NCBI GenBank assembly: GCA_039583875.1
Contig: CM077151.1
Coordinates: 19,984,326-20,048,325 of the forward strand
Direction of reading: 5' to 3'
Source: Platanthera guangdongensis
Taxonomy: Eukaryota; Streptophyta; Magnoliopsida; Asparagales; Orchidaceae
DNA: 64,000 nt
This document shows, one piece after another, positions 8,837 through 52,304 of the stretch. The notes beneath the pieces were generated by a model that was not told where the DNA came from, did no database searches, and saw nothing but the letters and a program-made list of their open reading frames with translations. A program made the position numbers and the translations under genes. The first letter of the stretch is position 1. Each line of letters opens with the position of its first letter.

Positions 8837-10547
8837 CTACACCAGGAGCATGGTCAATAGAAGTAGCGCTCCCATGAGCTGAATGATTTCAGCAGCGCCC
8901 TCATAATACTGCCTCTGAGCCCCGCTGCTCCCAGCTGTGGAGTTCGACGAAGGTGCTAAAGTCGTTCCATTCTCAAAAGTTCCATTCTTCCCATTACTGC
9001 AAGAATAGAAATAGACGTTCCATTAGAAATACCACTTTGTTGATGCGGAGAAGAAGCATGGAGAACGAAAAACAATAAGGTTCATTCGTGTGGACGAAGA
9101 GCATTGGAATTTGATCTTAAATTTCAATTCCGAAACTCCAATTCTGTCTAACCGAATGAACCTGGAGAGAATTGATTCATACCTTCCTGGAAACTTGCAA
9201 GCATCATGACCTGCGTTCACAAAAAGAGAGAATCAATATGATCACTACCCATCATCCTTTAGAAGCAATTGAAAGATCATCAATCTAACTTACTTGGATC
9301 TGTGGTGGTGATAGCTGCCACCCCATTGAAGTAGCAGCTCCCAGCAGACATTCCCATTTTATGGTAATACGCGTTGAACGCGTAGCTCGCATGCGAACCA
9401 ACTGTGTCGGGATCATAGCACAGCTGCCCCTGCTGCAGCACCGAGCACTCCACCTTCCCGGGCCCGCACGCCCAATCGAGCGCCGCCTGCAGCATCTTCT
9501 CGTCGACCCCGTCCTTGGCGATGCAGTAAGTCTGGTTCGTAGTATCGTTGGCCAGCACGAGCCCGGAACCGGTAAGATGCAGGGTGTAGTCGGGCACTCC
9601 GTCGCCATTGAACAACCCCCAGAATTGCTCGGACATCGCTCCCGGCCTTTGGTCCTCATCGTAGAGCTCGTAGATGTATGTGCTCACAGCCATCCCCGGG
9701 TGCTTCGGGGTGCCTGTGTTGTTGAGCACGTGGCGGATGAGGTTGCTATTGTAAGTGTTGGCATTATCCACGGTCGCATCGGGTTCGTTGGAGTCCCCCT
9801 TGTGTGGCCACCCCGATTCCATAACAATGACGGGGAGGTTGGTCACATTGAGGTAGGCCATGGCAAAATAGGAGGCGTCAACCACCGCGTCAAAGACGTT
9901 GGTGTAGTGGAGCAGAGTATTGGAGTCAACCGCCTCCTTGTTCGGCGGGAGTGGACGGAATAAGGCGTAGTCGAGTGGAACCACTCCGTTGGATTGCATG
10001 TAGTCGTAGTAGGGATATACATTGAGCATGAAGTAGGAGTCAGTGGATTGGAGGAATTTGAGGATGGGGGCAATGACGGGCTCCCATGAGCGGTTGAAGA
10101 AGGCTTGGGAGGGGGGGAAGGAGTCAAGGATGATGGAGGAGGAGTGGGGGGTGGAGACCTTGATCTGGAGGTCGAGATTGGCGGCAACGAGGGCGGAGTG
10201 GATGAATCGGAGGGCGGGGAGGAGGACGGGGGCGGCATTGGGGAGAGAAGTTAGAATCTCGGAGCCGACGGCGACAGAAGAGATGTTGACGGCGGGGAGG
10301 TGGGCCAAGACATTGCGGGAGACCCAGTTGGCCGCAGTGGCATTGGATTGGCCGACGGCGAGGAGCTGCTCGTTGGGGACGGAAACAGTGACGTGAATGT
10401 TGGAGTTGGCAAGGGCAGCGAGCATGGCGGGGTCGGCGTCGTAGAGGCGGATGTGTCGGATTTGCTGGGACTTGAGGAGGGCGACCACTTGGGTCGGGGA
10501 GGGCATGGAGGAGAGTGCAGTGCCGATGTTCACTCCGATGAAGGCGC
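8837..10547 (-). CDS. Glucan endo-1,3-beta-glucosidase, GH17 with X8 domain and GPI tail, exons 2-4
   Basis: Hydrolyses internal beta-1,3-glucan (callose) bonds and is expected at the outer plasma membrane, cell wall or plasmodesmata. Exons read here: 10547-9294, 9210-9183 (28 bp) and 8996-8837 with TAG stop; introns carry GT-AG ends (GTAAGT, GTATGA donors). With exon 1 at 52304-52247 the frame is 499 codons. The GH17 barrel spans about residues 21-340, with acid/base Glu in VAVGSEIL (about residue 116) and nucleophile Glu in VIVMESGWPHKGD (about 263). The X8/CBM43 cysteine domain lies at about 361-430 (CIAKDGVDEKMLQAALDWAC). A Ser/Asn-rich linker and a hydrophobic end (LMGALLLLTMLLV) form a GPI signal. 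An ATG at 10557 opens the same frame but lies in the intron acceptor region and would lack a signal peptide, so it is not the start. No stop or frameshift interrupts the gene. Confidence 0.95.
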
Positions 10548-10548
10548 C

Positions 10549-11546
10549 TGCAAGCATGGGTGCAAGTTAGTAGAAGAAATGAAGGGAGGGTGCACGTTAG
10601 AAAAGTAATGGAGGTAATGCTGTGTAAGTTAGAAACGGGATTATTCAAATAGCTAGTTTTCCCCCAGTGTGATCCCTGGGATATTGCATGCAGCCCGCTG
10701 GGCTATTCATGAGTGGAGAAGTGACCAAAGTAACCTTATCCATATATGTGTTTAATATATTTTAAAAATAATTCAAAATTCTTTTTTTCAAAAAAAATTG
10801 ATGGGGCGGGAGAACCTGTCCAATTAAAAAAAGTTAATAACAAATACAAATCTAGTAAGGACTTCTTTGTATTTGAAGAAAATAAAATAAATAATAATAC
10901 TTTGATAAAAGAAATTGAATAATTATATTTTTGGTATCAATTTTGAGTTTTAGGCTCCGCTTGACGTGGTGTTTTTGCTCTGGTGAGTTTGAAAAAAAAA
11001 AATCCACCTTCATAGAATGAATACCTGTTTGGCATGACAACGGTTATGACCGCCACCGACAAAGATTACCGCACCCATGATTTTTCGGTGCAACCACAAC
11101 CGGCTTGCCGGTACAATTTCAACAAGCCTGTTCCGGCGTGACTCCGAGTTTGTTTTGTGCTCCGAACAGACGACAGAGCATCTGCAGAAACCACTCTCCG
11201 TCATAAGCACATCTGATGCGAGTGGCACTGCACGTAGCACGGCATACCGCACAGCGCAAGTACTGTGCGCAAGGCACGCCGCTGCAGGTAATGTCTTCGC
11301 ACACCACGACCGTGCAAGGTTTGCGCGAGGCATGCGCGAAAATCCTCCGTGCAAACCCTGCACGACAAATATTGCGCGCAAGAATCCGCGCTGCACGGGA
11401 ATTCTCCCGCGCGTGGGAAACATCCGGCGCATGAATCATCCTGCGCGGGATTTTCCCTCCAAGAGCAATGGGGCGCTAATTTCTAGCGCCCCCATTGGCT
11501 GGAAGGGGCGCTGACCAAGTCAGCGCCCCTCTGGGCGGTTATCCTC
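10549..11546. other. Intron sequence next to exon 2, with hairpins
   Basis: AT-rich to 11040, then GC-rich with alternating GCGC and TGCAC motifs to 11460. Two adjacent hairpins sharing GGGGCGCT lie at 11466-11497 and 11504-11530 (see findings). No gene is seen. Open frames at 11077-11514 on both strands look compositional. Confidence 0.45.
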
Positions 11547-11959: not shown

Positions 11960-12442
11960 ACTCAATCTTTTCCAGCGGAGTCAGTGAGCTTCCTTTGTCA
12001 GCGCGACCTGTCTTCGCGGCTTGCTCCTTCTTCTCGCGACCTATCTTCGCGACTATTTCTCCCTCCAGTTTGCGTACTGTTCGCGCGGTTTCTTTCTCAT
12101 CCTTGTCGTTGCCTTTTGTGGGCGCAACCTCTCCTATTGCCCTTCCTTCTCGCCGCGACCTGCTCTTAAGTCGCCGCAACCTGTCCTTCTCACCGCGATT
12201 AGTTCCTAGTCGTCGCGCCCTCCTCATCTCGACGCGACTTATTCTTTTCACTGTGACTTGTTCTTCTCGCAGCGACCTGTTCGTCTAGCCGTGACCTGCT
12301 CTTAGTCGACGCGACCTAGTCTTCTCGCCGCGACTTGTTCATCTCGCCGCGACCTGTTCGTCTAGCCGCGACCTACTCTTAGTCGTCGCGACCTAATCTT
12401 CTCGCCGCAACTTGTTGTTCTCGCTGCTCTCTGCTTACTTTT

Positions 12443-13784
12443 ATGGCTCTCTCTGACACCTCTTCAAAGCAGTCCGTCTCCGTGGTCACGTCTTCGGGTA
12501 GTGCCCACGTCGTTATTCAAGGAAAATGGCTGATCGACTCTGGCGCTGTCAATCATATGACCGACAATCCTCAGTATTTTTCTTTCCTATAAACACATGA
12601 TCGGTTGCCCCCTGTCTTTATTGTGGACGGCTCTCCCTCACCGGTCAATGGGACGGGAGTGGTTCAAGTCTCTCCGTTTCTTCGCTTGCTGGATACTCTT
12701 TACGTGCCAAAGTTTCCTTGCAATTTATTATCTGTAACTTCTCTATGCAAGCAACTACAGTGTACCGTCACATTCACTCATATTTCGTGTTTTTTTCAGG
12801 ATCTGGACTACCAACGGACGATTGCTACTGGGACTGAGAGTGACGGCTTTTACTTCCTCGACAACGTTTCTGCTATTTCCGCCTTCTCCTCCTCTTCTAC
12901 AGACCTTCTGCAATGGCATATTCGCCTTGGTCATCCTCCTCCACGGCTTGTTCGTCAACTTCTGCCCAACCTTCCTCCGCACAGTCCTCCTCTCAACTGT
13001 GACGCATGTCAGCTTGTCAAGCATCACCGCTCATCCTTCCCACGAGAGCAAGGTCGTGGATCTTCCCGTCTGTTTGACCTCGTTCACTCCGATGTCTGGG
13101 GTCCTGCTCCTACCCTCACAATAGGTCAGTGTAGTTTATATTTTGTAACTTTTATTGATGATTTCTCACGCTGCACGTGGGTGTATCTTTTAAAAGATCG
13201 CTTCGAGTTATTCTCTGTATGGACATCCTTTTATTTTATGATTAAAACTCAGTTCGATGTCTCTATTAAATTGTTTCGCTCTGATAATGCCAAAAAATAT
13301 CTTAGTCATGATTTTTCTTCTTTCTGTATGCAACATAAGATTATTCATCAAATTAGTTGTGTCTATACCTCACAGCAAAATGGAGTAGCGGAACGCAAAA
13401 AACCGTCACCTCCTTGATGTCGCTTGCACTCTAATGACACAAGTGCAGATTCATCGCTCTTATTGGGGCTATGTCATTCTCATCTCCTGTTATCTCATCA
13501 ATCGCATTCCCTCCACGATTTTCCATGGTCAAACCCCATTCTTCATTCTCTATCTGGGCAAGGATCTGTTTTTTCTCCATATACGTATCTTTGGGTGCAC
13601 GGCTTTTGTGCACGCTCCCTCCGCCACCCGTGACAAACTCTCCCCATGTGCCACCAAATGTATCTTTCTGGGATACTCTACAACTCGGAAAGGTTATTGT
13701 TGTTTTGACCATGTTTTTTGCAAGCATTTCGTCTTTGCGGACGTAACTTTCTTCGAAAATGCGTCCCATTTCTCTCGCAACTCC
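12443..13784 (+). pseudogene. Copia-1 protease, GAG-pre-integrase and integrase, broken
   Basis: Starts MALSDTSSKQ and within about 30 codons reaches the protease motif LIDSGAVNHMT, so gag is absent. An in-frame TAA follows at about 12590. The frame resumes through LLQWHIRLGHPPPRLV (GAG-pre-integrase) and the integrase core (LVHSDVWGPAPT, YFVTFIDDFSRCTWVY). It shifts near 13400 at an A-run after the AERKK motif and continues to 13784, where the solo LTR enters. The leader at 12140-12420 is built of imperfect repeats of CGCCGCGACCTGTTC. Confidence 0.8.
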
Positions 13785-15051
13785 TGATACGCCCGAAACA
13801 GCTGTACTTATTACACGTAAGTGCACGTGTCGGTTCAAGTAATAAAGAGTGAATAGAGATCGTTTCCACGGAGAGGTGGTGAATTCAGTGCTTGAAATTA
13901 CTAGCTAGACCTTTTCTTTAAATTCAAGTGAATCAAGATGATGATTTTGATTTAATAAACTAAATTATGAGAAATTTCTAAAATAAGATAAAATAAACTA
14001 TAGTTTCTTAGGAGAAAACTTTAAATTCAGATTTGAGAAGTAATCTTTTGCGGTGATTTCCTATCTCTACTGCAATGAATTTATAAATGATACTTTGTGA
14101 AAATGAGTGGTGAAACACCTTGCAACGATTTTAGAGTAGACAGTTGTATCTCTCGATATCGGAAGTCCCTAATCCTCTATTACCCCTCGGGTGAAATAGG
14201 AAATCAATTAAAGATTGAAAACCAAAGTTGCTAACATCAAGAGGAAATCTCTTTCTTCAATCAAGTGTTATATGGAATCTATAACACACTTACGCAACTG
14301 CTCTCTCAATTTATGAAACAGAGTAAAAAGGCAAAACCGTGATCAAAGGCTTCAGAATATAGATTATAAATTCAATAAAGGTTCATTCACCAAACAATTA
14401 CAAAAAGAAAACAAAAGAGCATTTATCACAAAAGACATAGTACTTTCATATCACAAAATCGAGGAAATTAGTTCATGATGACGAAAGAAAACCACAAGAA
14501 TAGGTAGATCTTACAGCACATGATGATAGAGATTAAAGACTTGTAGAGTTTCTCTCTCCGATTCGACCGAAATCCGTCCGTCTTCAAGATCTAGCCGCTC
14601 TTCTTCAATGGAGGATTTTTACAAACCCTAGATGAAGATCTCTTGGTTTCCTCTCCTCCTCCCTCTTAGAATGCGTTGGAATCGATTATTTGGTGGAGAT
14701 TTTCCCTCTTAAAAACGTAGCCACTCCTTTGGAAAGAAGCACTTTTCCATATTTGAAATTGGAGCCAACTTTGAATTTCAAAATCTGAAATTCATCCAGA
14801 CCACGTTGCAACCTGCTTCCCGCTCGTTGTGACCTACTGTTCTAGTTTTTATATTTGGGCAGATTTCTTCCTCCAAGTAGATTTTTTTGGCATTTCTCGC
14901 AATGACACCAGGGAAAAAGACCGAATTAGCCACAAAATAAATAAATATGGATTTAATTTCAGTTCTATCTTATTTAAAATCATTTTAAGCATTTTATAAC
15001 GAATATTAAGTCTAAAATTGGGCTAGATAACTTCTTTTTGAGAAATTATCA
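13785..15051. mobile_element. Solo LTR inserted in Copia-1
   Basis: 1267 bp starting TGATACGC and ending AATTATCA (inverted TGATA/TATCA ends), flanked by ACTCC and ACTCA (4 of 5 match). It splits the copia linker between integrase and reverse transcriptase, and the polyprotein resumes on the far side. It carries the CACGTAAGTGCACGTG and AAGTAATAAAG motifs near its start. No internal domain or second copy is present, so it looks like the product of LTR-LTR recombination. Confidence 0.75.
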
Positions 15052-16146
15052 ACTCATCTTCTCTTCCTGATGTTCCTGCTTCTCATACCGTCCCCTCCGT
15101 CTCATCTACACCTACTGAGATTTCTCCTCCTCCACCGTGTCCACTGTCTCCTCTCTCTCCGTCTTCGTTATCTTCCTCTTCTCCACAACCGTCTCTCTAC
15201 TCCCGGGCCAGCTCTCTCTACCATGAATGCATCGGATACTGAGGAACACGCCGACCTGGATCTTCCTATTGCTCTTCGCAAAGGGGTGCGGACATGTACT
15301 CAGCACTAGCTAGTTATTGTTGTTTCCTATGCTCGTCTTAATCTTTCTCGCAGGACTTTTGCATTTGCGATCTCTGTCACTGCAACTCCTCGCACCTACC
15401 AGGAAGCCCTTGTTGTTCCTCATTGGAAGGCGATCATGGATGAGAAAATTGCTACCCTCACTGAGCTGGGTACATGGACCCTTGTTCCTCCTCCATTGGA
15501 CACCGATGTTGTTGGCTGTCGCTGGGTCTTTGTTGTGAAATTCAGTCTGGACGGCAGTGTGGATCGTAACAAGGCTCGTCTTGTCGCCAAAAACTTCACT
15601 CAGACTTATGGTGTTGATTATTTTGACACCTTCTCTCTCATTGCTCGTCTGAGCACTATTCGGGTTCTCCTTTCTGTGGTCGTCAACAGGGATCGGCCCA
15701 TTTCCCAACTAAATGTCAAGAATGTCTTTCTCTATGGTGATCTTCAGGAGGATGTCTACTTGGAGCAACATCCTGAGTATGTTTCTCTGGGGGAGACACG
15801 GGTATGCAGGCTGAAGAAGGCCATCTATGGCCTAAAGCAAAGCCTTCGGGCTTGGTTTGACAAGTTTAGCGGCATTGTGGTAGCTGTGGGTTTTACAATA
15901 AGTTTTGTCGATCACTCATTGTTCATTCGCAAAACCTCCCTGAGTCTATTGGTTCTTGCAGTATATGTGAATGATATTCTTCTCAATGGAGATGATCATG
16001 CTAGGGTAGCCTTGACAAAGAAACATCTCCGTCAACACCGGGTCACGAAGGATATGGGCTCCCCAAAATACTTTTTGAGGATAGAAATCTCTCGAAAGCC
16101 CAACTCCTTGGTCCTCTCCCAACGTAAGTATGCTCTTGATCTTTAA
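15052..16146 (+). pseudogene. Copia-1 linker and reverse transcriptase, truncated
   Basis: Ser/Pro-rich linker, then reverse transcriptase from about 15436 (WTLVPPPLDTDVVGCRWVF, YGLKQSLRAWFDKF). The catalytic YVDD box reads YVND (AVYVNDILLNGDD), so the enzyme would be dead. The frame ends at the element junction. Confidence 0.82.
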
Positions 16147-16169
16147 AAGGAAACAAGGTTAATATGGGC

Positions 16170-16601
16170 TCCACGACCAACAGGCATAGATCGCCCGGTC
16201 AACCAGCGGACTTGGCGGACTCTGCGAGTACCCTAGAATTGTCACAGATTGTGACCAAGTCCAGCAACCCACCAAGATCATGGCGTGAGCTCGGCGGACA
16301 CGAAGCCAGATCGTTATCTCCAAAGTCAGTCTGCCAACCACGAACGTCAACAAGTGTACGGGCAAATGCAGACCTTGCGATCTCCAAACGCAGTCCGCAA
16401 CGGGCGGACTCCGCGAGCACAAAGGAGACCGCCACATCCGCCATGCGGATATACCTCCTATCCGCCCGGTTCAAGGAACAGCTGAAGAATCACAGCCATG
16501 TCGCATCAAACAGGCCGCCTAGGCCGCTCAGGTCGCACCATCAGACCGCCCAGGCCGCGCGGTCTGCTTGATCAACCACTTCCACTTTAACAATTTCAAC
16601 A
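16170..16601 (-). repeat. Copia-2 3' LTR, truncated
   Basis: 432 bp matching 21568-22000 of the 5' LTR. The remaining about 880 bp is missing at the junction with Copia-1. Confidence 0.85.
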
Positions 16602-16619
16602 CTCCCGCTTGAAGTGAGA

Positions 16620-18394
16620 AGTTGAAATCAGCCCAAGAAAACTCCGCAATCGGGTGAATGGTCCCTTGGCTAGCGGTTTTGTGAATATGTATGTCATATT
16701 GTCCATACTCCGAACATGTTTGACAATGAGGGATCCCTCCAGCATCTTCTCACAGATGAAGTGGTGTTCGATCCCTATATGTTTGGTTCTTGCGTGACAA
16801 ACTGGTTTATTTACCAGTTTGAGAGCACTTTCATTGTCCCCGCGGAGCAGAGTAGGACCTCAAACCTTTATATGGATGTCATCCACCAATCTTCTGAGCC
16901 AGATGGCTTCTTGAGCCGCCAAGGCTGAAGCCTTGTATTCTGCTTCTGTGGTAAAGACAGACATCGAGTCCTATTTCTTGCTGCACCAGAATACAGTTGT
17001 TTGGCCCGCCATAAAGACGTATCCAAACGTCGACTTCCGATCATCTGAATCTCCCTCATAATCATCATCCATATAACCATGCAACTCGAAATTTGTGCCT
17101 CTCCTATAAAAGAGACCCATATCAGAGGTCGACTTCACATACTTTAAGATGCTTTTTGCTGCCATCAGATGAGGTTTCCGTGGTTCCACCATGTACCGAC
17201 TCACCCTGTCAACTGCATATGCAATATCTGGCCTAGTGATCGTCAAATAGATCAAGCTTCCAACCAGCGCTCGGAACACCAATGGATCATAAAGACTTCT
17301 CCCCTCATCACGTCGAAGTTTCAGACCAGCTTCAAGAGGTGTAGAACTGCTTTTCCCCCTTTCATGCCAAATCGTTGTACGATCCGATTTGCATAGCCAG
17401 TCTGAGACACAAGCACTCCGTTCTCCCGCCTCTGTACCTCGAGTCCAAGGAAATGATGAAGCTCACCCATATCATTTATCTCAAATCTGATAGCAAGCTC
17501 GGCCCTCAGCCTGGCTACCTCCTCCTTTGAATTTCCGGTAACAATCATGTCATCCACATACAACAGTACGATGACCTAAAGCTCCCCCTTCTTCTTGACA
17601 AACAAGCTTGAGTCTGAATCTGAAACAAAAAATCCGCAGAACAAGAGATATTCTGCAATCTTCTCATACCTTGCTCTTGGCGCTTGCTTCAGCCCATAAA
17701 AGGCTTTCTTCAGCTTGCAAACGTAGTTCGGATGTTCTTTAGAGATAAACCCAGACGGCTGGATCATGAAGATATCCTTGTCAATCTCGCCATATAAGAA
17801 GACATTCTTCACGTCGAGCTGCCAAATTTCTCATCCACTGATCGCTGCTAAGACAATAACCATCCGTACTGAAGTCATCTTAGCAACTGTACTAAATGTC
17901 TCATCATAATCTTCCCCGTACTGCTGTGAAAATCCTCGAGCTACAAGGCGAGCCTTGTACCGCTCGATGCTACCATCTGCTTTCTTCTTCAACTTGTAGA
18001 CCCACTTGCAAGTCACTATAGTGATGTCTTCTGGCTTAGGTACAAGTGACCACGTCTCGTTCTTCTTAAGAGCAGTCATCTCCTCCTCCATAGCACAGTC
18101 CCACTTCTTGACTCCTGTTGCCTTCTCGAAACATGATGGCTCCTGCTCATCCAGAGGACCCGCAAAGAAACATGAGACAAAACTCACCATGTTTCCTTCC
18201 GTGTAACGAGCTGGTGGCTTGATAGTTCTCTTTGATCTCCTCAAGGTTTGTGCTTGACTGACCACCTCCTCAACTGTCTCTTCTGTACTAGCTTCTCTTT
18301 CAGACGCGCCTGGAGCATCGCTCCCCCTACTTCCGAAACCAGAAGTTTCCGCCTCTGAGCTAGACACGGTTGGAGCTCCTGCTGAAACAGGCAA
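16620..18394 (-). pseudogene. Copia-2 reverse transcriptase and RNase H, multiply broken
   Basis: Segments 18394-17831 (CKWVYKLKKKADGSIERYKA), 17812-17576 (MKNVFLYGEIDKDIFMIQPS), 17563-17321 (MYVDDMIVTGNS, catalytic YVDD kept) and 17282-16971 (LVGSLIYLTITRPDIAYAVD). Below 16971 only RNase H scraps in mixed frames remain, down to the purine tract. Confidence 0.85.
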
Positions 18395-18805
18395 CTCTAC
18401 TTGAAGACTTACAACAACTTTTTCTTGTCTGTCAGCCCTGCTCTCAGGTAGTTCAATCCCTGAACTCTCTTTCTAAGAAGTCAACTCATCAAACACCACA
18501 TTCCGAGAAACGACAAATCTCTGTGTCTCTGGATCCATGCATTTTCATCCCTTCTTTCTGTCATCACACCCCACGAAAACTAACTTTCATGTTTTCGCAT
18601 CTAGCTTTGTCCGAAGAGTGTCAGGAACATGCACATAACAAGTTGACCTAAATACCCGAAGGTGAGCAACACTTGGTTTCTCGTTGAACATCAATTCATG
18701 AGGAGTCATCATGTTAATTGGACTTAGAGGCATTCAGTTAATAACATAGGCTGCACAAGACATTCCCTCCGCCCAGAAGGACCTTGGGATACTCTTGGCA
18801 TGAAT

Positions 18806-19327
18806 TCAGCACTTGCAGGTCTCCGTCAAATGACGGATCTTCCTTTCTGCAACTTCGTTCTGTCGTGGGGTATGTGCACAGGTAAGCTCTCTTCGAATAC
18901 CGCTCTTCCTGCAAAAATTAAACTCGGCAGAGGTGAACTCTCCACCATTGTCAGTCCTCAATTTCTTGATTCGCAGGCCTAATCGGCCTTCCACGAGCTC
19001 CTTAAACCCCACAAATTTTCCGAACGCTTCGGGCTTTTCTTTCAAAAAATACACCCAGACATATCTGATGTAATCATCAATTAATACCAGCATGTACGTG
19101 TTGCCTCTGAGACTTGGGGTGATAGTTGGTCCCATCAGATCCTCGTGAATGCACTCCAATGGTTTTTTACTTCTGATTTGTGATTTATCAAATGGAAGTC
19201 GATGAGACTTACCATACTGACATCCCGCGCAAACATGACCGTCTCCGTAGGAGGACAAGCTAGGCAAGCAATTGACCAGACCTTTTACCGCCATAGCTTT
19301 TAATTTGTCAATTCCTACATGCCTCAA
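18806..19327 (-). pseudogene. Copia-2 pre-integrase and integrase
   Basis: Contains the zinc-binding H/C region (CAGCQYGKSHRLPF) and the DDE core (HEDLMGPTITPS; LRTDNGGEFTS; HTPRQNEVAERK). The end of the domain is shifted out of frame. Confidence 0.85.
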
Positions 19328-19336
19328 TCTCTCATG

Positions 19337-20497
19337 TCAAATGACTGCGCTATCATTTTTCCTCATCTTATCAACGTAAGAACTCGTAGATAGAACATAC
19401 AAGTCTTTTGCTCTCCTCCCAATGTGAACAACATCAGTTTTTACGACTGATATATTTCGAAGAAATTTTACTTCCGTTGGACCAAACAAAACGTGATACC
19501 AAGCGTCAACAGTGTTGGTCATGGAGAAGAGATTCTTTTTCATACCAGGCACATGATATACACTCTTTAGAGTGAGTGGCCCTCTATCACTGCCTATGGA
19601 GACAATCCCTTCCTTCTCAACAGCATGAACAGTATCATCAGCGGTGATAATAACATCATTACCTGAGTATGACTGTGATGAGGAGAACTTTGATTCATCT
19701 CCAGTAAGGTGATGACCGTACCCGGAGTCCACGATCCAATCCTCCTGATAGTTGATAGGAGCAGAAGCACAAAGAGTAGCCGAGAAGGCTCCTCCCCAAC
19801 CACCATCATCCTCTCTGGCATCAGGTTCCTCCTTCTCAGCAGCATGTCCTAGCTGGAGATTAACTCTGCAGTCCCTTCTGAAATGACCTAGCTTGTTACA
19901 CCTGTAACACCTAAGCCCTTCCTTCTTCCCCTCAGACTTAGGAGCATAGCTCCTCTCCTGCTGACCTGAAGATGACGGCCCATCGCCTCCAAAAGGCTTC
20001 TTCTTCTTCTCCCACTTCTTCTTCCCATAAAACAACACCTCGTTCTCTCCTTCTGAGATAGACACCCCCGCCATCTGTCTTGTCAAGCTCTCCTGCGATG
20101 AAAGCAGATACTCCTTCCGCAAACCGCGGATAATATGCCTCTTCAGCTTCGCCTCAGAGATAGGCTTATCGGGATCCAAAGCAGAAATCTCTACGCAGAG
20201 GTTTTTCATTTTAAGAAAGAAGGTGGAAACAGGTAAATCTCTTTGAGTGGCCTTTCCCAACTCATTTTCTAAGAATTGTAGCCGAGCTACATTCTTCCTG
20301 TTGAAGAGGCCATCCAAGGCCATCCAGATCTCAGCGGCTGATTTGCAACCAATGATGTGATCGAAGAGTTCAAGTGAAATAGCTCTCTTAAGAGTAAACT
20401 CAGCCTTTGCATTTGTTCTCTTCGAAGTCTTCACTTCTTGAGCATTATCAGCAGCAAGAACAACTTCCTGAGTATCATCTCCTCCAACCACCTGCAA
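19337..20497 (-). pseudogene. Copia-2 gag, zinc knuckle and protease
   Basis: UBN2-type gag with AEIWMALDGLFNRKNVARLQ, a CCHC knuckle (CYRCNKLGHFRRDC) and the protease region WIVDSGYGHHLTGDESKF, where the usual DSGA/DTGA reads DSGY. The open part is 386 codons and is followed by an in-frame stop before GAG-pre-integrase (MRHVGIDKLKAM at 19327). Confidence 0.85.
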
Positions 20498-20677
20498 GAG
20501 GTCCTCACCCAGTAGATAACTCTCCGTACAAGACTTTCACTTCTTGTAGTTAGTCTGTGTCAGAAGTTCAATACCGAGACCTCTTGCATATCCTGCTTCC
20601 ATGGCTCTAACACGGTATTCTCTTCACAAGAGCAACAACAACTCCTAGTTGATCACTGCTTAACCACTCCAACCTCT

Positions 20678-20688
20678 CTCTGATACCA
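20678..20688 (-). other. Copia-2 primer binding site
   Basis: TGGTATCAGAG on the minus strand, the initiator tRNA-Met complement, directly abutting the LTR end. Confidence 0.85.
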
Positions 20689-22000
20689 TGTTAAGTTTTT
20701 GGATCTTGGAATGAGCAGTAGTTGTATCAACTAAAAATTTGAACACAACAGCAAACAAGGTTCTTTATTGATAATATCTGTCACCTTACAAAGCGAGACA
20801 TACGTGGTGAGACATGATTTCGCCAGCATGTAACAAAACAAACAGAACAGAAACAACCCACAGGAAGATAAACGCGGCCTGGAAGATCAGTCCGTCGAGA
20901 CCGCTACAGACTGCACCTGCAGTTCGTCAGTCCGCCAAGACCAGCACACAGCACTAGCCGCTCTAGCACGAACACAGTCCGCAACCTTCAGAACCAGACC
21001 GCCGCTTCAGAACTACTTCACAGATTGCTACCCGCAAACTGCCCAAAACCGCCAGCTAGAAGAAGAGCTGCTTGGACCTGTTCACACAACCTGCACAGAG
21101 AAGTAACTTCAGCAAGATGCGCGGTCTGAAGAATTCAGTCCGCAGATTCCAATATGAGTTGTGCTTACTGTTCTTCGATGATTTTGTTGTCAACGGGGGG
21201 TCCTATTTATAGGTACGAAGAGAGATGTGATCACCGACCTAGCTGATAGAAACACCACCCCCAGCCCGCAAACTACCTTCACCAGACCACCCAGTCCGCA
21301 TGGACATGGTCGTTCCACAAGCTAATCCACCAACACTCCTGAATAAGGACTAGTCCGCAACACCTGCGGACACCACTCTTGTTCGCAACAGACAGCTCAG
21401 TTCGCTAAGCCAGGAAGCCAGTCCGCTATCTGGCGGACAGCACACCAGTCCGCACATTGCACAACACGGACACAGCAACAGCCCTCACTGCAACAGTCCA
21501 CACGCTGCACGCGGACATAGCACCAACCCGCTCAGCCCGCGAACATGGCACCAGTCAGGCACACAAGTCCACGACCAACAGACACAGATCGCTCGGTCAA
21601 CCAGCGGACTTGGCGGACTCTGCGAGTACCCTAGACTTATCACAGATTGTGACCAAGTCCAACAACCCACCAAGAACATGGCGCGAGCTCGGTGGACACG
21701 AAGCCAGATCGTTATCTCCAAAGTCAGTCCGCCAACCACGAACGTCAACAAGTGCACGGGCAAATGCAGACCTTGCGATCTACAAACGCAGTCCGCAACG
21801 GGCGGACTCCGCGAGCACAAAAGGAGACCGCCACATCCGCCCTGCGGATATACCTCCTATCCTCCCGGTTCAAGGAACAGCTGAAGAATCACAGCCAGGT
21901 CGCATCAAACAGGCCGTCTAGGCCGCCCAGGTCGCACCATCAGACAGCCCAGGCCGCGCAGTTTGCTTGATCAACCACTTCCACTTCAACAATTTCAACA
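20689..22000 (-). repeat. Copia-2 5' LTR
   Basis: 1312 bp. On the minus strand it begins TGTTGAAATTG and ends CTTAACA before TGGTATCAGAG. Bases 21568-22000 are nearly identical to 16170-16601. Confidence 0.85.
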
Positions 22001-34783: not shown

Positions 34784-34837
34784 TTTTGGTGCGGTGAGCG
34801 TGGAGGTGACCAGCACAGAAGATCTCGGGAGAGTGTC

Positions 34838-38310: not shown

Positions 38311-38315
38311 ATCAT

Positions 38316-39167: not shown

Positions 39168-39191
39168 ACTTCTTGTCTCCTCATCCCAGCT

Positions 39192-40046: not shown

Positions 40047-40061
40047 CCTATGGTGTCATAG

Positions 40062-40640
40062 TCACGCTTCTTCCTCTTCTTTTGTTCTCGCGAGATAAGC
40101 CGTCTCTTGAGCATCCATCTTCAGCGTGAAGAGACGGTTCGTCGTCATGTTCATCTTCACTACCTCCTTCCCTTGATCATTCTTCATTGTCAGAGACCTA
40201 TCCTTCATCTGCACGCAGTAGCATCTCTCCACTAACTGCCCAATGCTCAAGATGTTGGTCTTCAACCCTGGTACGTAGCACACATCATTCAAGTGTACTC
40301 TCTCCCCGTTCAGTTTCACAACAACTAGGCCCTTTTCTTCCAAGGAAATGTTCGAAGCATCCCTGAAGCTAACCTCACCCCCACTGGGTTCAAGGTTAGA
40401 GAACATCTCCTTATCTCCACACATGTGGTTGCTCGCCCCTGTGTCCAGGTACCATACTTCATTTCTTCCTTCTTCTGCACCTCGGTAGGTTAGAAACATC
40501 ATTGGGTCTCCACCCCTAGCATCGTTCCCCTTGTTCCTAGCCTCCGCATAATGGTTGGCTTCTTTTGTCTTCTTCGGAACCCAACAGTCATAGCTCATGT
40601 GCCCAAACTTGTTGCAGTTGTAACACTGAACTTGGGCTCT
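40062..40640 (-). pseudogene. Copia-4 zinc knuckle and protease
   Basis: CCHC knuckle CYNCNKFGHMSYDC at about 40620-40585 and aspartic protease EVWYLDTGASNHMCGDKEMF (DTGA intact). The following pre-integrase is in the same frame after one stop near 40062. A run of Glu/Lys codons at 40640-40800 has shifted frame. Confidence 0.88.
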
Positions 40641-40688
40641 TCCTCCTCGGCCTCTTCCTTGGCCTCTTCCTCTGCCTCTTCCTTCTTG

Positions 40689-41498
40689 TCATCTTCCTCC
40701 TTGAGGTTGCTCTGTCTCTCTCTGGTGATATTGGTTTCTTCCCTGATCTCTTCCTCCTTTTCTTCCTCTTCCTCTGCCTTTTTGACCTCGGCCACACTGG
40801 CTGCCTCCTCTTCCGGAGCTCTCTCCGAAGTTCAGCTGGTTCTGGAGTGCTTTTCCCAAGCCACTCGCTTCTTCATCATCTTGCATCATCCTGTACTCAT
40901 GAGCTTGCAATGAGCCTACAAGCTTGTCAACAGTCATCAAGGTGAGGTCCTTCGACTCTTTGATCGCCACAACCACATGACGGAACATCCGCGACATCGA
41001 TCTCAGCAGCTTCTCCATGAGGCTCACATCATCTATCGTCTCTCCGTTTCTCTTCATCTCGTTTGTGAGCGTCCGCAGAGGGGTCACAAAGTCTCCGACC
41101 TTCTCCGTTGTCTGCATTCTCAACATTTCATATTCACCCCGGAGAGACTGCAGCTTCACTTTCTTCGCCTTGTCTACTCCTTGCATGGAGCGTTGCAACA
41201 CTTCTCATGTTTCCTTCAAACTTCCCGCATCAGAGATCTTCTCAAAAGTCGCCTCATCGACCCCTTGGTATAATAAGAACAATGTCTTCTTATCTCGCTT
41301 CTTCAACTCTCTCAATGTCGTCCTCTGAGCGTTCGTCAAAGCCGTTTCTGCTTCAGCAGTAAGCTCTTCATAGCCGTCCTCGACGACTTCCCATAGCTCC
41401 TTCGAGGCGAGCAACACTTTCATTTGGATGCTCCAATTTCCATAGTTCGTCTTTGTCAATTTATGGACTTGCCCTGGCATGGCACTTCCAAATTCCAT
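40689..41498 (-). pseudogene. Copia-4 gag
   Basis: Starts MEFGSAMPGQVHKLTKTNYG at 41498. An in-frame TGA at 41207-41205 lies where related gags have Trp (KEx-W-E), fitting a single G-to-A change. The same frame then continues (KVKLQSLRGEYEMLRMQTTE; MMQDDEEASGLGKALQNQLN) into a Gly/Arg-rich tail. Confidence 0.9.
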
Positions 41499-41712
41499 CT
41501 CTCCTTTACTTCAAACCTTCCGAGTCACCGTAAAGGTTTGTAACCTCGCTTTGATACCACTTGTTGGAAACGTGTACGGGCTCACAATCGATTCCACTTG
41601 ACCCCAAAACACAAACCCAAAACTTGCGAGACCGCCACAAACCGCGCGAGCACTTCCAAATTCCATCTCTCCATTACTTCAAACCTTCCGAGTCACCGTA
41701 AAGGTTTGTAAC
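41483..41712. repeat. 168-bp tandem duplication of leader, primer site and LTR edge
   Basis: 41483-41650 (gag start, leader, primer site, first 89 bp of the LTR edge) is repeated as 41651-41712 plus 46842-46947. The second copy is interrupted by Copia-5. Both copies carry TGATACCA, the primer site on the plus strand. Confidence 0.88.
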
Positions 41713-41893
41713 TGTTGGAGGAGAAAAGTTAATTGAGTTTATTCATCCACATGGGGGTATTTATACAAATACAACGATATGACACGTCACTGATCCGTGT
41801 GCTCTCATATTTCCTAAATAGGAATCGATCTATTTAGGAAACAAATAACGTAATCAATACAAAGATTATATGCAATCAATGCAATATCTAACA
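41713..41893 (-). repeat. Copia-5 3' LTR
   Basis: 181 bp; TGTTAGATATTG start on the minus strand, CCTCCAACA end. Confidence 0.93.
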
Positions 41894-41900
41894 CCCCCCC

Positions 41901-44900
41901 TCAAATTGGGCGTGTGATGTCAGCCATGCCGAACTTGCCAATAAGATCTGCGAACATATTGGAACTTAGACACTTTGTGAGAACATCGGTCAACTGTTGG
42001 TCAGATGGTATGAATGGGATAACAACGGTTCCTCGGTCGATATTGTCCTTGATGAAATGTTTGTCAATCTCAATGTGTTTCGTACGATCATGTTGTACCG
42101 GATTGTGGGCAATGGAGATTGCAGCTTTGTTGTCACAATACAATCTGATGGGCTCACTTCCTTTAAGCCCAAGTTCCTTCAGGATAGTGGAGACCCATAA
42201 CCCTTCACAGATGCCATGTGCGATTGCTCTAAACTCGGCCTCAGCACTGGACCTAGCAACAACATGTTGCTTCTTGCTTCTCCAGCTGACCAAATTCCCA
42301 CAAATCATGGAACAATATCTAGTTGTGGAGCGCCTATCGGTGGGCGATCCAGCCCAGTCCGCGTCAGTGTAAACTTCAATAATCAACTCCTTATTTGGTG
42401 AGAATAGGATGCCCTTCCCTCGTGAGGACTTGAGGTATCGGAGGACACGATACGCGGCATCAATATGACGGGCCTTTGGAGAGTGCATAAACTGGCTGAG
42501 AACTCCCACAGCATAAGAGATATCTGGTCGAGTGTGAGATAAGTAGATTAATTTCCCTACCAGCCTCTGGTAACTGGGAATGTCATCGATCACATCGCCA
42601 TCTTCTCTGCCGAGCTTGTGATTGGCTTCGATTGGGGTGTCGGCAGGCCGACACCCGCTCATCCCAGTGGCTTCAAGGAGGTCGAGCACATACTTCCTTT
42701 GTGATAGGAAAATGTCATATTTTGATCTTGCAACTTCAATGCCGAGAAAGTATTTGAGATTTCTCAAATCTTTCACTTCAAATTCTTTTGCCAATTTCTC
42801 CTTCAGTGCTTGAATCTCCTCCTTGTCATCCCCAGTGATTATGATATCATCCACGTAGACAATCAGGACGGTTAACTTTCCCTTGTTGATTCTGATAAAG
42901 AGGGTGTGGTCGACATTGCTCTGACGGTATCCAAACCTATTCATGGCTTTGTGGAATCTTCCAAACCAGGCCCTGGCTGATTGTTTCAGGCCATAGAGTG
43001 GCCTCCGTAATCTGCACACTTTCCCTTTTGATCCGCTAGGGCTGAGTCCCGGAGGGAGAGCCATGTAGATCTCTTCTTCCAGGTCGCCATGAAGATAAGC
43101 ATTCTTCACATCCAATTGGCAGAGTTGCCAATCCTTGCAGGCAGCACAAGATATGAGAATTCTGATCGAATTCATTTTTGCAACAGGAGCAAAGGTCTCC
43201 TGGTAGTCTATGCCCTCTGTCTGAGTATAGCCTCTTGCCACGAGTCGTGCCTTGTATCTTTCTACAATGCCCGAGGGGTTCTGTTTGACGGTGAATACCC
43301 ATTTGCATCCAACAACCTTTTTTCTTGGTGGCAGTTGTATCAGGTCCCATGTGCCATTTTTTTCCAGGGCACTCATTTCTTCGAGCATTGCTAACTTCCA
43401 CCTGTCGTCGGAAAGGGCATCCTGCCATGAAGTGGGGATGGAGACAGAGGACAAAGAGGAAACAAATGTTTCATGGGAAGCTGTTAGGGATGAGTAAGAA
43501 ACAAACTGAGATAATGGATGTTGAGTGGAGGTACCTTCCGTAGGGATGATGGATCCTGACGACGGGTCAGGTGGGTGGTCTGATATCCAGATGTTGGGCC
43601 GCGTGTTCGATCCCTTGGGTCGACGAGAGTACACCTGCGGAGGTTTAGTAACAGGGACCTGGAAAGGAGGGGCGCAAGGAGTAGGAGGTGTAGACTGAGA
43701 GGGATGATATACCGGAGGAATAGGTAGAGGGGTGTCAGAGTAAGGTAAGGTACTCACTTCCGTTGTGGGAAGAGACCCCCCCTGAAGTGAGGACCCATAG
43801 TAGCCTTCAGATTCCCGGAAGGTAACGTCCATGATAACGTAAACCTTCTTGTTGACTGGGTCAAAACATTTATATCCCTTCTGAGTAGGGGAGTAGCCAA
43901 TGAAGACGCACTTGTGCGCACGAGCATCAAGTTTCGGGCGGTGGTGGATATGGACGAAACAAACACACTCAAAAACATGTGGTGGGAGAGTGGTAGGTGG
44001 AACCCCAAGTGTGGTGAGGGGAGTTTTGAAACCGAGAACACGGGATGGCATACGGTTTATAAGGTACGCTGCGGTGAGTACAGCATCCCCCCAGTAGTAT
44101 TTAGGGAGTTGCATGTGGAGGAGGAGACACCGAGCAACTTCCAATAGGTGGTGGTTCTTACGCTCAGCCACCCCATTTTGAGCCGGGGAGTAGGCGCAGG
44201 ATGTCTGATGGATAATCCCCCGATTGGCGAGGAACTGCTCGAAGGTGGAATCAATGAATTCACGGCCATTATCAGTGCGGAGGATCTTGATGGGGGTCGA
44301 AAACTGTGTAGAGACCATGTTGTAGAATCGCTAGAACAAGGGAAAGACCTCATTTTTGGCTTTCATAAGGTAAACCCAGGTGGTACGTGAAAAACAGTCG
44401 ATAAAAGTTACAAACCAAAAACAACCCGAAATAGATGCAACCCGGCAAGGACCCCAAACATCACTATGTATCAAATGGAAATGAGCAGGACTTGGAGAAG
44501 AAATATGATTAAAAGAGGTACGATGATTTTTACCACGATCACATGCATCACAACGAAATTTATCAACTAACCCAGACGGGAAATTAGGAAATAAACGTTT
44601 CATAGAATGGATAGACGGATGTCCCAGCCGACAGTGCCAGGACTCCAAAGTAGTTGTCCGATCCACATGGAGAGCTCGGGGAGGAGAGGCCGGGGTGGAA
44701 GAATCGAACACATATAGCCCGTCCACCAGACTATCAGTTCCAATCACCGTTCCCGTCTTCAGGTCCTGAAAAATGCAAGAAGAAGGAAAGAAAGTTACTG
44801 AGCAGTGCATAGAATTGGTTATATGACTAATGGAAAGGAGATTGCGGGTAAAGTTCGGAACATGAAGAACCGAGGAAAGAGTTAGGGAGGAGCACGGGAT

Positions 44901-46178
44901 GGAACCTTTTTCGGCAATGGGAGAGAGGGAACCATCTGCGATGCTCACTTTGTCCCGACCAGACAACGGAAGGTAGGACACAAAACCTGAGGAGGAGCCG
45001 GTCATATGGTATGTTGCTCCAGAATCAATGATCCAGTGAGTAGAGGGACGGGTGGAGGCAGCATGAGCACCGGAAGGCCCCTGATGGGCATATGAGGACG
45101 AAGAGGCATGTGGCTCTGGTGATGGGCCCTGCATCAGGCGTCGGAAAGCAAGGACCTCATCAGGCGTCAGAGTCAATGTGGGAGTTGTCGGAAGCTGTGG
45201 CTCGTCGAAAACATCAGACAGGTGCGCGGAGCGAGGCTGGGTAGAGCGACCCGAAGTGCGACCGGGACCGCGACCGCTATGAGAGGAAGAGCCGCCACGG
45301 GGTGTAGGGAACCCATGAAGCCGAAAGCAAGTCTCCCGTGTATGACGGTTCTTCCCGCAATAGTCACAGAGGAGGTGATCCTTGTCAGTGGACTTCGGCC
45401 GAGAATCACGAGCCGCGCGTAGCCCAACCGGGGCCGTCAAGGCCGAACCATCTGGAGGAGGCTCAGGAGTCCAAGTTTGCCTTCGATCAAATTCCTGCTG
45501 AACGAGACTGAAAACCTCTGGAAGAGAGGGTAAGGGTGAGCGGCCAAGTATCTGCACACTGATTTGGTCAAAGTCCCTATGTAGCCCATGAAGGAACTCG
45601 AAAACTCGGTTGCGATCTTCCCGTGCGCGAACCAGGAGCTCAGGCGATGCCAAAGTAATGGAGTCAAAGTGATCGTACTCCTGATATAGCTGGGTGAACT
45701 CGAGGTAGTAGGCAGACGGAGGGCGATCTCCTTGGCGAAGAAGGAAGATCTTGCGTCGCAGCTGAAAGATCTGGGCCGCGTTGCCGCAACAGGAGTAGGT
45801 ATTTTCCGCCCTTCGCCAAATGTCCGCAGCCGTATCCAGAAAGAGATAGTTACGAGCGATGGAGTCGACCATGGAGTTAGTCAGCCAGGACATGACGAGG
45901 GAGTTCTCTGATTCCCATTGCACCCAATCTGGGGAATCTGAACGAGGTATGGGTGTAGTGCCCAGGACATATCCAAACAGCCGCCTGCTCTTCAAAGCAA
46001 GAGTAATAGCCCGAGACCACGGGAGATAGTTGGTACCATCCAGACAAATCGTCGTGATTTGAGGCGTATTGTGGTCATGTCCCGGGCGAGGGAAGCCGTT
46101 GGACGTCACGGTAGTTGGGGGTGTACTGGTGGTGGAAGATTCGGTAGGGGAGCCATTGGTCCCGGCCATGGTGAGCAA
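41901..46178 (-). pseudogene. Copia-5 gag-pol polyprotein with one nonsense codon
   Basis: A single frame of 1426 codons including stops. Order: gag (TICLDGTNYLPWSRAITLAL), knuckle CDYCGKNRHTRETCFRLHGF, protease WIIDSGATYHMTGSSSGFV, pre-integrase WHCRLGHPSIHSMKRLFPNF, integrase (LIHSDVWGPCRV; LRTDNGREFIDS; SPAQNGVAERKN), Pro/Ser linker, reverse transcriptase (WDLIQLPPRKKVVGCKWVFT; LIVYVDDIIITGDDKEE) and RNase H (SSAEAEFRAIAHGICEGLWV) to the normal end. An in-frame TAG at about 44333-44331, between integrase blocks, is the only break; the frame is identical on both sides. Catalytic residues look intact. Expected length for copia is about 1300-1450 residues. Confidence 0.93.
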
Positions 46179-46637
46179 GCATACAAAGCAAGATCCCCCG
46201 GGAGAGCAAAGAGCAGCCTAGATAGAAACTAGGTCGGCCTCATAGAAAGATGAAGGAACCAAAAAAATGGTGTAGGCACCGGAAAGGACATTAGGAGGAG
46301 CACCGCATGTGCGATATCAAGGAGACGACGCAGGACAGGGGCCGGAGGTACTGGCGGTGGCCGAGGGGCCGCTGGAAGAGGGCCGAAGCCCGACAGGCGC
46401 TGGTGCGGGAGGCGCGGCGTGCGTACAACGTCTGGAGGCGGTTGCGGGGTGCGGCGGAGGAGTGGGAGGGGAAATCGGTCGTGGCTAGGTGGGGCTAGGG
46501 GCCGCCGGAGCCAGCGGGTCGGGAGTTGCTCGCTGAGGTCGGCGGAGTTGCGGGCGGAGGTCGGCGGGTTGTTCGTGCGGGAGAAAGAAGGAAAAGACGT
46601 ACGGGAGAGGTATTTTAGCCCTAAGGCTCTGATACCA

Positions 46638-46836
46638 TGTTGGAGGAGAAAAGTTAATTGAGTTTATTCATCCACATGGGGGTATTTATACAAATACAAC
46701 GATATGACACGTCACTGATCCGTGTGCTCTCATATTTCCTAAATAGGAATCGATCTATTTAGGAAACAAATAACGTAATCAATACAAAGATTATATGCAA
46801 TACAAAGATTATATGCAATCAATGCAATATCCAACA
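46638..46836 (-). repeat. Copia-5 5' LTR
   Basis: 199 bp; same as the 3' LTR except for a duplicated TACAAAGATTATATGCAA and one base at the outer end. A TATTTATAC box lies near 46683. Confidence 0.93.
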
Positions 46837-46858
46837 GTAACCTCGCTTTGATACCACT

Positions 46859-47618
46859 TGTTAGAAACGTGTATGGGCTCACAATCGATTCCACTTGACC
46901 CCAAAACACAAACCCAAAACTTGCGAGACCGCCACAAACCGCGCGAGCTCTTCTTGCGAGATGGCCACACGCGAGATCAACACCAAACCGCGACAGGTCG
47001 CGCGAACTCTTTCCTGCAGGCGAGTAGTCCACTCGGCGAGATCAAACCTGCGGGACCACCACACGCGGGCACCCAACCCGCGAGTACACCAGCGAGACCT
47101 CCACACGTGAGTATACAAGCCGCGACCTCTCCTCCTCGCGGCGAGATCAAGCCGACTCGCGTCCCGCCTTACTCGCGACTAGTCCACTACCTCTCGCCAA
47201 TCCCCTCTCCCTCGGTGGCGAGCTCAGGAAACCGCCCGGTTACCCCTTCAAGCCGCTCGGGACAAACCAACTCGCCGAGACCAAACGGCGGGATCTCCCA
47301 ATCCGGCGAGAACTCCAACTCGCCCGGCAAGCCTCTCTACCCGCTCGACAAGGCTCGTGCGCTGCAGCGCTTCTCTTTTTCTCTCTAAGAACCGGAATTT
47401 GGGAGCTTCTCTCTCTATTTCATCAATCATAAAAAGGGACTACAAATGGCCTATTTATAGGCAAAGGAAAACAAGCAAAAGAAATCTCTCTCCTAATAAT
47501 TACAAACTCTCATCTACCCATTTAATACATACTCTCTTTCTATTCATTAAAAGCAACCATAAATGAAATGGTAATTCCAAGAAACTTGTGGGGCCCGGTC
47601 AACTTAATAACTCCAGCA
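46859..47618 (-). repeat. Copia-4 5' LTR
   Basis: 760 bp, nearly identical to 31009-31768. Its inner edge and the leader are duplicated at 41562-41650. Confidence 0.93.
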
Positions 47619-50164: not shown

Positions 50165-51045
50165 TGATGGGAATGAAGCTCCATTTAAAGCCTTGGGGGT
50201 GCATTTAACCACTATCCCCCATGATTTCTTCTATTATGGAGATCATGGTTTTGACCGGTCAACCCACTTCTCATGATCTCCTCCACAATAGGAGGATCAT
50301 GGGGGACACCCTTTCAATAACTACCACTGCCGGCCGCGGCCTCCGCCACGGTCGCGGTCGCCGCCGCCGCTTGACAGTCACGTCGTCGCCGCTTGCAGGT
50401 AGGATACTGTCCGATCACTACGGAGCCTCCATGTCGTCCGATCATTACGGAGCCTCCATCGCCGTCCGATCTACAGGTAACCACCCACTAACCACCAGAT
50501 TAGTAGGGGTCCACCATAACCACCTCCTGGAGATTATAAAGGGAGCATCAGGTCTCCTCATTTCTCACCTTTTTGCTCCCCTAGCCTTCATCTTCCTCAG
50601 GTCAGAGCTCTGTCGAACTCCCTCGGGTCATCTTCAAGCCGCCAACGAGGCAAAAGAACTCTCAAGTCCCCAAGTGCGCAGAAAAGGGAAGAAGACGACT
50701 ATCACCAGCACTCAAGCACATCAGCCACCAAGCAGCATCCAACTCCCCCTCGGCGCAGCCTGTTGCCCGTTGCGAGTCAGGAATTCTCTCTCACCACCAA
50801 CTTGTAACGAGAAGCGGTCTGTCGCCATCAATTCTCCAAGCATATTGTAACCACAAACTGATAGTAGATTTTGACCGACACAGATCCGGTCACGTGGTTT
50901 TTTACTCAGTTGAGGGGTTTTCCACGTTAAAACCTTTTGTGTCAACTCTCTATTTTCATTGGCTGTTTGCGCGCTCGACCATCCAGAGAGCTAAGGTGGT
51001 CCAGTTTATTCCGGTCCGACCGGGACGCCGAGTTAGTCCGCAACA
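50165..51045 (+). mobile_element. Gypsy solo LTR in the intron
   Basis: 881 bp homologous to the gypsy LTR at 60502-61411, starting TGATGGG and ending CGCAACA. Flanks GGCGG and GACGG match at 4 of 5. Shared blocks include TTTTGACCGGTCAAC and ACGTGGTTTTTTAC. No primer site or coding sequence follows, so it is a solo LTR. It abuts the end of the minisatellite. Confidence 0.78.
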
Positions 51046-52246
51046 GACGGCAATAAACAACACACCTCCCCCCCTATGGAGGGAGAGTTGTGTGTCCGTC
51101 TCACCTGTGTCGTGCTCAGCAATGCCTTTAGCAGGGGAAGTTCCTATAGACTTTCGGGTGTATAGCGGAACTTGCTCGTTGCAGCACACGCGTCTTGTTT
51201 GTAGGCAATTTAGGAAAATTTCTTGTGATTACTAGTCTCTTCTCGTCATATCTCATCTGGGTCGACCACTAGACTAGTAAACTTTGATCGCCCCTGGGTC
51301 CGAATAAACCCCAAAAATCTTGGCTCCAATAGTTTTGTTTGAGGGGGAGTTTTTATATACTCGAGTGTGCGTAGTGAGACTCTGAGACCTCTTAGTTGTG
51401 GCTAGCCAATTGGAAGTCGAGCAACTAGACCCCAGTCATTCCCGTTCTGGATTTTAGACAAGTGGAGTTTTACTTTTGTGGGTCAGTAACTTCGGCCTAT
51501 GCCCAAATCGGGTCTAACACATTACTCAAATTTTATCAGCCTGCACGTTCTTTTAACGACAATAAATATAACTCACATAAACACTAAAAGGCATATAAAG
51601 CTAAGTCCTGAATAAGATAGCAAGCAAGATTAATCTCTTGCACGTCAAAAACGTTGCTCCAACAAAAATTCTCCCAGCAATCCAGCCGACAGATCTATCT
51701 CCTCCTACAGATCTACTGCTTCTCTTTAGACAAAAATAAGAGAAAAAATGAACGTAAAAAGAAAATCTCTTCAAAAAATTCCAGTCATCATCTGTTTCTT
51801 CATTATTACTGCAATATCCCACAAGATACAAGATGACAACGCAGAGATAAATCTACCCCCATCACAGCCGTCAATGCATCTGGACGGTTGGATTTCATAG
51901 ATTCACGCCATAGTTGAAGAACCCTAGCTAGTTGAATAGATGAATTTCATATTGAATTTACTAGCTGCCGGCATTAATGCAAGAAAGTACGGCAAATGCC
52001 GGATTCTACAGCACAAGTGGGCCCATCTTCCATGGGTGATTTCATGGTTCATTGGTGAGTATAACGCGAGTTAGTAAACTTTAAAAGCAGATACAAACAG
52101 AAATTTAAGCTGATGGACAGCTAAGAAAGCTGAGCTTCACTTGTTTTTAGCTACAGCAGCTCATTGCGCGGTGGCTAATAGGCAATCGGAGTTAAAACAA
52201 TAAATTAAAGAAATGTGTAGCAAAATCAAAGATATTCGAATCATAC
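51046..52246. other. Intron sequence next to exon 1, no gene
   Basis: 51046-51540 has LTR-like features (GTTTGAGGGGGAGTTT at about 51336) without a partner copy. 51540-52246 is AT-rich and probably native intron. No open frame has domain support. Confidence 0.4.
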
Positions 52247-52304
52247 CTTCATCAGCGCAAGCCACCGAGAATGTGAGTAAAAGAAGCAGCAATCGCATCC
52301 CCAT
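52247..52304 (-). CDS. Glucanase exon 1: signal peptide
   Basis: The ATG at 52304 opens MGMRLLLLLLTFSVACADE, a textbook secretion signal, and stops at a donor GAAG|GTATGA (52246). The exon ends one base into a codon. Exon 2 at 10547 starts with the other two bases after TTGCAG, giving a Gly followed by AFIGVNIG. The joined ADE-GAFIGVNIG is what this family has at its signal-peptide/GH17 boundary, where a phase-1 intron is normal. The acceptor side carries TACTAAC, a perfect branch-point consensus, about 20 bases before the AG. No other signal-peptide exon is visible nearer exon 2. Assignment is by phase, strand, motif and total length, not by transcript evidence. Confidence 0.85.

Follow-up and report, generated by a model that had tools for sequence, protein, structure and literature searches.

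A 41.7-kb first intron, composed mostly of retrotransposon sequence, in a predicted GH17/X8 beta-1,3-glucanase gene of the orchid Platanthera guangdongensis

The window analysed here is a 64,000-nucleotide stretch of the Platanthera guangdongensis genome (GCA_039583875.1, contig CM077151.1; C5:19984326-20048325 among the 274 contigs of the 4,245,561,818-base assembly). On its minus strand lies a gene for a predicted GH17/X8 beta-1,3-glucanase, in which the signal-peptide exon and the remainder of the coding sequence are 41.7 kb apart. We consider it highly likely that the gene is functional, that its first intron has grown stepwise to this length by retrotransposon insertion and that exon 1 is spliced to exon 2. 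This reading is carried by an intact frame, proper splice signals, an exon 1 that agrees with related proteins, the anatomy of the inserted elements and young pairs of long terminal repeats (LTRs). The gene is correctly observed but is ordinary for this large genome, not exceptional. Its features are:

52522-52529, minus strand: TATA-like box TATAAAAA, about 220 nt 5' of the start codon; putative promoter element
52304-52247, minus strand: exon 1, with the ATG, the signal peptide MGMRLLLLLLTFSVACADE, the first base of a G codon and a phase-1 GT donor
52246-10548, minus strand: intron 1, 41,699 nt, GT...AG
10547-9294, minus strand: exon 2, with the GH17 and X8 domains
9210-9183, minus strand: exon 3
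8996-8837, minus strand: exon 4, with the C-terminal tail, a hydrophobic end that resembles a glycosylphosphatidylinositol (GPI) signal by eye, and the stop codon

The 58-nt exon 1 ends at ...GATGAAG/GTATGA, and intron 1 begins with GTATGATT and closes with TTGCAG, with the string CTACTAACTTGCA located upstream of the exon 2 acceptor. Introns 2 and 3 are 83 and 186 nt long, and GT/AG borders are present at exons 2-4. Joining the four exons gives a frame of 1,500 nt, or 499 amino acids plus stop, without a stop or frameshift in any of the 499 codons, and a one-base shift of the acceptor of exon 2 to either side introduces stops (both offsets were tried). The preliminary description of this DNA had proposed these exon coordinates, a phase-1 donor at 52247 with a complementary acceptor at 10547, proper splice sites at exons 3 and 4 and a joined frame of this length, all of which we reproduce. 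The four-exon model is very probably correct and, as far as its sequence can tell, the gene is very probably functional. A tRNA scan of the window returned no genes.

Is the distant first exon the right one? The closest relative, P0001, is a 497-residue protein that aligns with 100% of the query, including the signal peptide, at 94% identity. Its source contig of 1,669 nt exceeds the 1,494 nt needed for 497 codons and a stop by 175 nt, which falls short of the combined length of introns 2 and 3 in the window, and the contig therefore looks spliced; we take its source label, 'lgn', to denote assembled sequencing reads. P0002 is 90% identical over 100% of the query, and the best named relative, P0003 from Dendrobium thyrsiflorum, is 87% identical over 96%. 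The exon 1 peptide MGMRLLLLLLTFSVACADE, followed by G across the junction, resembles MGMRLLLLLLLAFSTACADE plus G in P0001 and MGVPLLLLLLLAFSVARADE plus G in P0003. All nine relatives that were read residue by residue, among 120 listed, have a hydrophobic N-terminus ending in ADE- or ADD-like residues.

A scan of the minus strand from 10548 to 60000 (49 kb) for an ATG, a hydrophobic peptide and a phase-1 GT donor, using assumed donor weights, gives 12 candidate rows at four places. The exon at 52304 has the best donor, at 9.9 bits, and the best elsewhere scores 5.4. Thus the earlier assignment of 52304-52247 as the signal-peptide exon stands, by donor score and by agreement with the N-termini of P0001 and P0003. 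A genome search with 441 nt around exon 1 finds one full-length match, its own locus, and five partial matches, none longer than 175 nt (six candidates, all scored). The same kind of scan at the paralogue L017 finds a plausible phase-1 first exon approximately 2.7 kb upstream.

The encoded protein matches PF00332 (Glyco_hydro_17) with 268.1 bits over profile positions 1-304 of 306, and PF07983 (X8) with 68.5 bits at residues 360-430. Its VGSEIL and MESGWP motifs correspond to E residues of the solved chain 6jms in an alignment made with P0003, the 87% identical relative, and we take these E residues to be the catalytic glutamates, in agreement with the prior claim that the catalytic residues and the X8 domain are intact. 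By sequence, P0003 also resembles plant beta-1,3-glucanases of solved structure, 2cyg and 1ghs among them; for its X8 part the match is chain 2jon. The N-terminus is hydrophobic in the first-exon scan and the C-terminus by eye. The product is probably a secreted, GPI-anchored endo-1,3-beta-glucanase of the 'glucan endo-1,3-beta-glucosidase 2/3' type. It shares its domain order, its length of about 500 residues and its hydrophobic termini with plant proteins of that kind and shows no visible difference from them, whereas intron 1 is here very long. Many of the 69 GH17 profile matches in the genome are exons belonging to split genes, and the 14 other loci that we compared are 31-52% identical to this one, with no close paralogue among them.

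Of the six Copia bodies or fragments in intron 1, five share the orientation of the gene (sense) and one is antisense; an antisense LTR element that carries only gag is also present. This is in line with the earlier count of at least six LTR-element bodies, several of them in sense. For Copia A, B, D and I and the gag-only element the names come from family searches with some of their open reading frames (ORFs), and for C and G from reading the translations. The elements, with their target-site duplications (TSDs), are:

12146-16169, plus strand (antisense): Copia A fragment, its approximate left limit placed at a tandem repeat; family search identifies gag pre-integrase and integrase, and reading identifies reverse transcriptase (RT) at 15436-16146
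16170-22000, minus strand (sense): Copia B, direct repeats 16170-16601 and 21568-22000, 95.1% identical
23472-25682, minus strand (sense): Copia C fragments, labelled from an ORF translation
26275-28451, minus strand (sense): Copia D fragments, gag and Pol_BBD
31009-47618, minus strand (sense): Copia G, LTRs 31009-31770 and 46859-47618, TSD GAACT
32741-38310, plus strand (antisense): gag-only LTR element, TSD ATCAT, nested in Copia G, within the RT region by reading
41713-46836, minus strand (sense): Copia I, TSD GTAAC, nested in the Copia G leader

With limits set by hand, the Copia-bearing stretches make up approximately 74% of intron 1, and adding a block of tandem repeats and another repeat raises this to 78%. 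The duplications GAACT, GTAAC and ATCAT mark ordinary insertions. The search at Copia G gave a second possible end at 47673, which is incompatible with the LTR edge. For Copia B, whose left outer end is approximate, a search for a target-site duplication found none. The Copia G LTRs are 98.4% identical (12 substitutions in 760) and enclose the two nested insertions, and those of Copia I are 99.4% identical (1 substitution in 180, plus 19 gap columns). At a rate of 1.3e-8 per site per year, taken from rice and assumed to apply to this genome, the repeat pairs would be about 0.6 (G), 0.2 (I), 0.8 (the gag-only element, whose repeat limits are approximate) and 1.9 (B) million years old. By these ages all four dated pairs are young, and 16.6 kb of the intron looks recent.

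The nested region also contains rearrangements of its own. Beside the Copia I insertion site, positions 41540-41707 repeat about 117 bp from the LTR edge and leader of Copia G, which looks like a duplication in that leader. GC-rich 19-bp tandem arrays (ACCCCAGGCCGCCGAGCTC) occupy 32929-33235, 33926-34327 and 37489-37800 in the gag-only element, and a 996-bp tandem duplication (32257-33261 and 33253-34257) overlaps this element and extends into the RT-coding sequence of Copia G.

Several points weigh against a single gene read across this intron. Continuity across 11-52 kb is that of the assembled sequence; the transcript-like evidence comes from P0001, a relative at 94% that is neither identical nor from this locus; and intron 1 carries 23 AATAAA strings on the sense strand (20 on the antisense strand), so that truncated transcripts are possible. 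The exons at 52304 and 10547 could, given the 41.7 kb between them, come from different genes or have been brought together by an assembly misjoin. Yet the phase, the family-specific peptide and the sequences of relatives agree, and elsewhere in the 4.25 Gb the exon 1 region is matched only in part. Together with the candidate scan, the target-site duplications and a genome search in which one match alone is full-length, this leads us to reject a wrong first exon or misjoin, which we regard as extremely improbable. It is also very unlikely that the gene starts near exon 2, for example at the in-frame ATG at 10557 (MLAGAFIGVN..., no signal peptide), or that an intronic LTR promoter supplies another first exon. 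A 425-residue ORF does open at this ATG, but the codon lies within the last ten bases of intron 1, its product would not be secreted, and the N-termini of the nine relatives argue for a signal peptide.

It could also be that the gene is dying: the intron would be too long, most transcripts would end at polyadenylation sites in the sense retrotransposons, and exons 2-4 would no longer be expressed as a secreted enzyme. The five sense Copia bodies are consistent with such a state, as is the youth of the repeat pairs (0.2-1.9 million years at the assumed rate), coding decay being not yet visible. Nevertheless, 499 codons are free of stops and frameshifts, the protein is 94% identical to a relative, and another GH17 gene, as read in the assembly, has a longer intron with proper borders; we find this alternative unlikely. 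In the preferred reading, that of a functional gene with a stepwise-grown intron, the phase-1 intron after the signal peptide would have been enlarged in steps by insertions of which several are nested and recent. RNA polymerase would begin close to the TATA-like box (52.53 kb) and read through the entire intron including its inserts, and exon 1 would be spliced to exon 2, as other long-intron genes in this genome must do. We infer that the locus is transcribed and spliced, that its inserts are silenced and that its product is enzymatically active.

How unusual is such an intron? We fetched six split GH17 pairs, picked mostly for long-looking gaps, with other pairs, some of them short-gapped, left aside; the gaps between their profile matches are 50,299, 34,575, 17,446, 14,271, 13,803 and 2,108 nt. 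All six have GT/AG borders and join in frame by eye, and one of the six gaps is longer than intron 1 of the present gene. The GH17 genes at C6:63394551-63444851 and C10:194024044-194058620 have introns of approximately 50 and 35 kb. In a chaperonin control (PF00118, 64 matches), 19 neighbouring gaps include eight above 29 kb, four above 41.7 kb and six below 6 kb, with a maximum of 79,148 nt; the four largest each skip at least 43 profile positions and are upper bounds for single introns, since missed exons are likely.

Published work on orchids points the same way. Introns are described there as long in general, for example in Dendrobium chrysotoxum and Cymbidium ensifolium (PMC8408244, PMC8633000), and for the MSH1 gene 26.98% of orchid introns exceed 10 kb, the longest being 101,025 bp in Vanilla planifolia, with transposable element (TE) content correlated with gene length (PMC10487979). 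In Cycas, an expressed gene has an intron of about 1.5 Mb (PMC9023351). Intron 1, at 41,699 nt and approximately 74% Copia-bearing by the hand-set limits, falls among orchid introns above 10 kb that are mostly TEs, a placement made from one gene whose best named match is from Dendrobium. It shares with the reported orchid introns the plant family and the size class, and with MSH1 also the cause; it differs in belonging to another gene and in being the first intron. Because a longer GH17 intron, large chaperonin gaps and published long orchid introns all exist, the finding is an ordinary one. Of the earlier proposal of a gene functional despite its LTR-filled intron, the single gene with an intact frame and very probable function is upheld, but its status as a special natural case is not.

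A further parallel is provided by genes of Arabidopsis and rice with intronic heterochromatin (PMC4417168, PMC7145194, PMC10241880), which likewise harbor TEs within introns of protein-making genes; IBM2 and EDM2 are factors named in that field. The present locus differs in being known from its sequence, and its intron greatly exceeds the average of 446.9 bp given for rice (PMC7145194). By analogy, the same factors and read-through of TE-filled introns may apply here. The locus offers a clean, datable case in which nested retrotransposons have lengthened an intron while the orchid gene itself has stayed intact, and it may serve to test how long introns filled with TEs are transcribed. It also bears on gene annotation, where a 58-nt first exon 42 kb away is easily lost.

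Exon 1 has a second history, in transposons. Part of the following span recurs elsewhere in the genome:

52192-52382, minus strand: part of the 5' leader, exon 1 and the start of intron 1

A genome sequence search finds the exon 1 region, with its splice donor, in five dispersed partial copies (L037-L041) at 80-84% identity; the copies were found through this match, so that its presence in all five is by selection. L038-L041 have approximately 0.8-1.1 kb in common, and L037 has several shorter pieces in common with them. Three of the five have resolvable ends, TAGG..TGTGCAAAA and TAGKGGTGYAA, which are imperfectly inverted; one end of these copies reads TAGGNNTGTGCAAAA... and their 8-bp target-site duplications are all imperfect, with 7/8, 6/8 and 7/8 bases matching. 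Such ends and 8-bp duplications presumably place the elements in the hAT superfamily. The element lengths are 1,490 (L037), 4,372 (L039) and 2,706 nt (L040); both ends of L038 and L041 were not located. Approximately 1.1 kb of L038 has at least 42 matches in the genome (40 of 877 candidates scored), and among the matches listed for this query three places besides the query, on C8, C3 and C4, cover the captured exon; L037 brings the known carriers to five.

The direction of transfer can be read from the copies. The window copy ends at the leader and at the intron start without flanks in common with the others, and it retains the ADE residues and following G of P0001 and P0003 and has the TATA-like box; the other copies have drifted. 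We therefore reject an origin of exon 1 from the transposon and conclude that the elements copied the gene. By the imperfect terminal inverted repeats and 8-bp duplications of three copies and the captured exon in all five, they appear to represent gene capture of the Pack-hAT kind. Pack-hAT exon capture has been described in maize (PMC8903248), where a terminal-inverted-repeat element likewise carries a captured host exon; the piece captured here differs in that it is a first exon, complete with its start codon, signal peptide and donor site, and chimeric products are hypothetical. First-exon capture by a hAT-like family is a new detail of this analysis relative to the literature covered, which concerns Pack-hAT in general.

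In four of the five copies the leader is still open and the GT donor retained, whereas L039 contains two stops; L041 reads one codon shorter from the alignment. A conservation test was made with four copies, L037 being left out as it aligns over less of the element. Variable ungapped columns number 15/123 in the captured stretch and 87/570 in the rest (p = 0.48), and this four-copy test found no selection on the captured exon. Pairwise mismatches are 49/747 in the captured stretch, 103/1,817 to its left and 203/1,801 to its right. Since it varies about as much as the remainder of the element does, the captured exon gives no sign of function. No host gene was recognised by eye among ORFs of at least 110 codons in the five loci, each of approximately 9.9 kb, several reading as retroelement protein; no family search was run. 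It would be a long shot that hAT-like elements carry a ready-made secretory first exon of which some orchid genes already use a copy; if so, an element landing upstream of a gene could make the protein of that gene secreted. In any case, the captured exon illustrates how a transposon can copy a signal peptide together with its splice donor.

Two further features lie around or upstream of exon 1. Direct repeats at 50165-51046 and 60502-61412, 78-84% identical, flank the exon and are read as two separate LTRs. A single large LTR element enclosing exon 1 between them was considered and rejected, because TTTGGCGCCGTC, which we take to be a primer-binding-like motif, follows the right copy and was not seen after the left, the opposite of what such an element needs. 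Upstream of the gene, positions 57257-59122 (minus strand) hold a MULE transposase ORF of 621 residues, with a FAR1 match below cut-off and a SWIM zinc finger.

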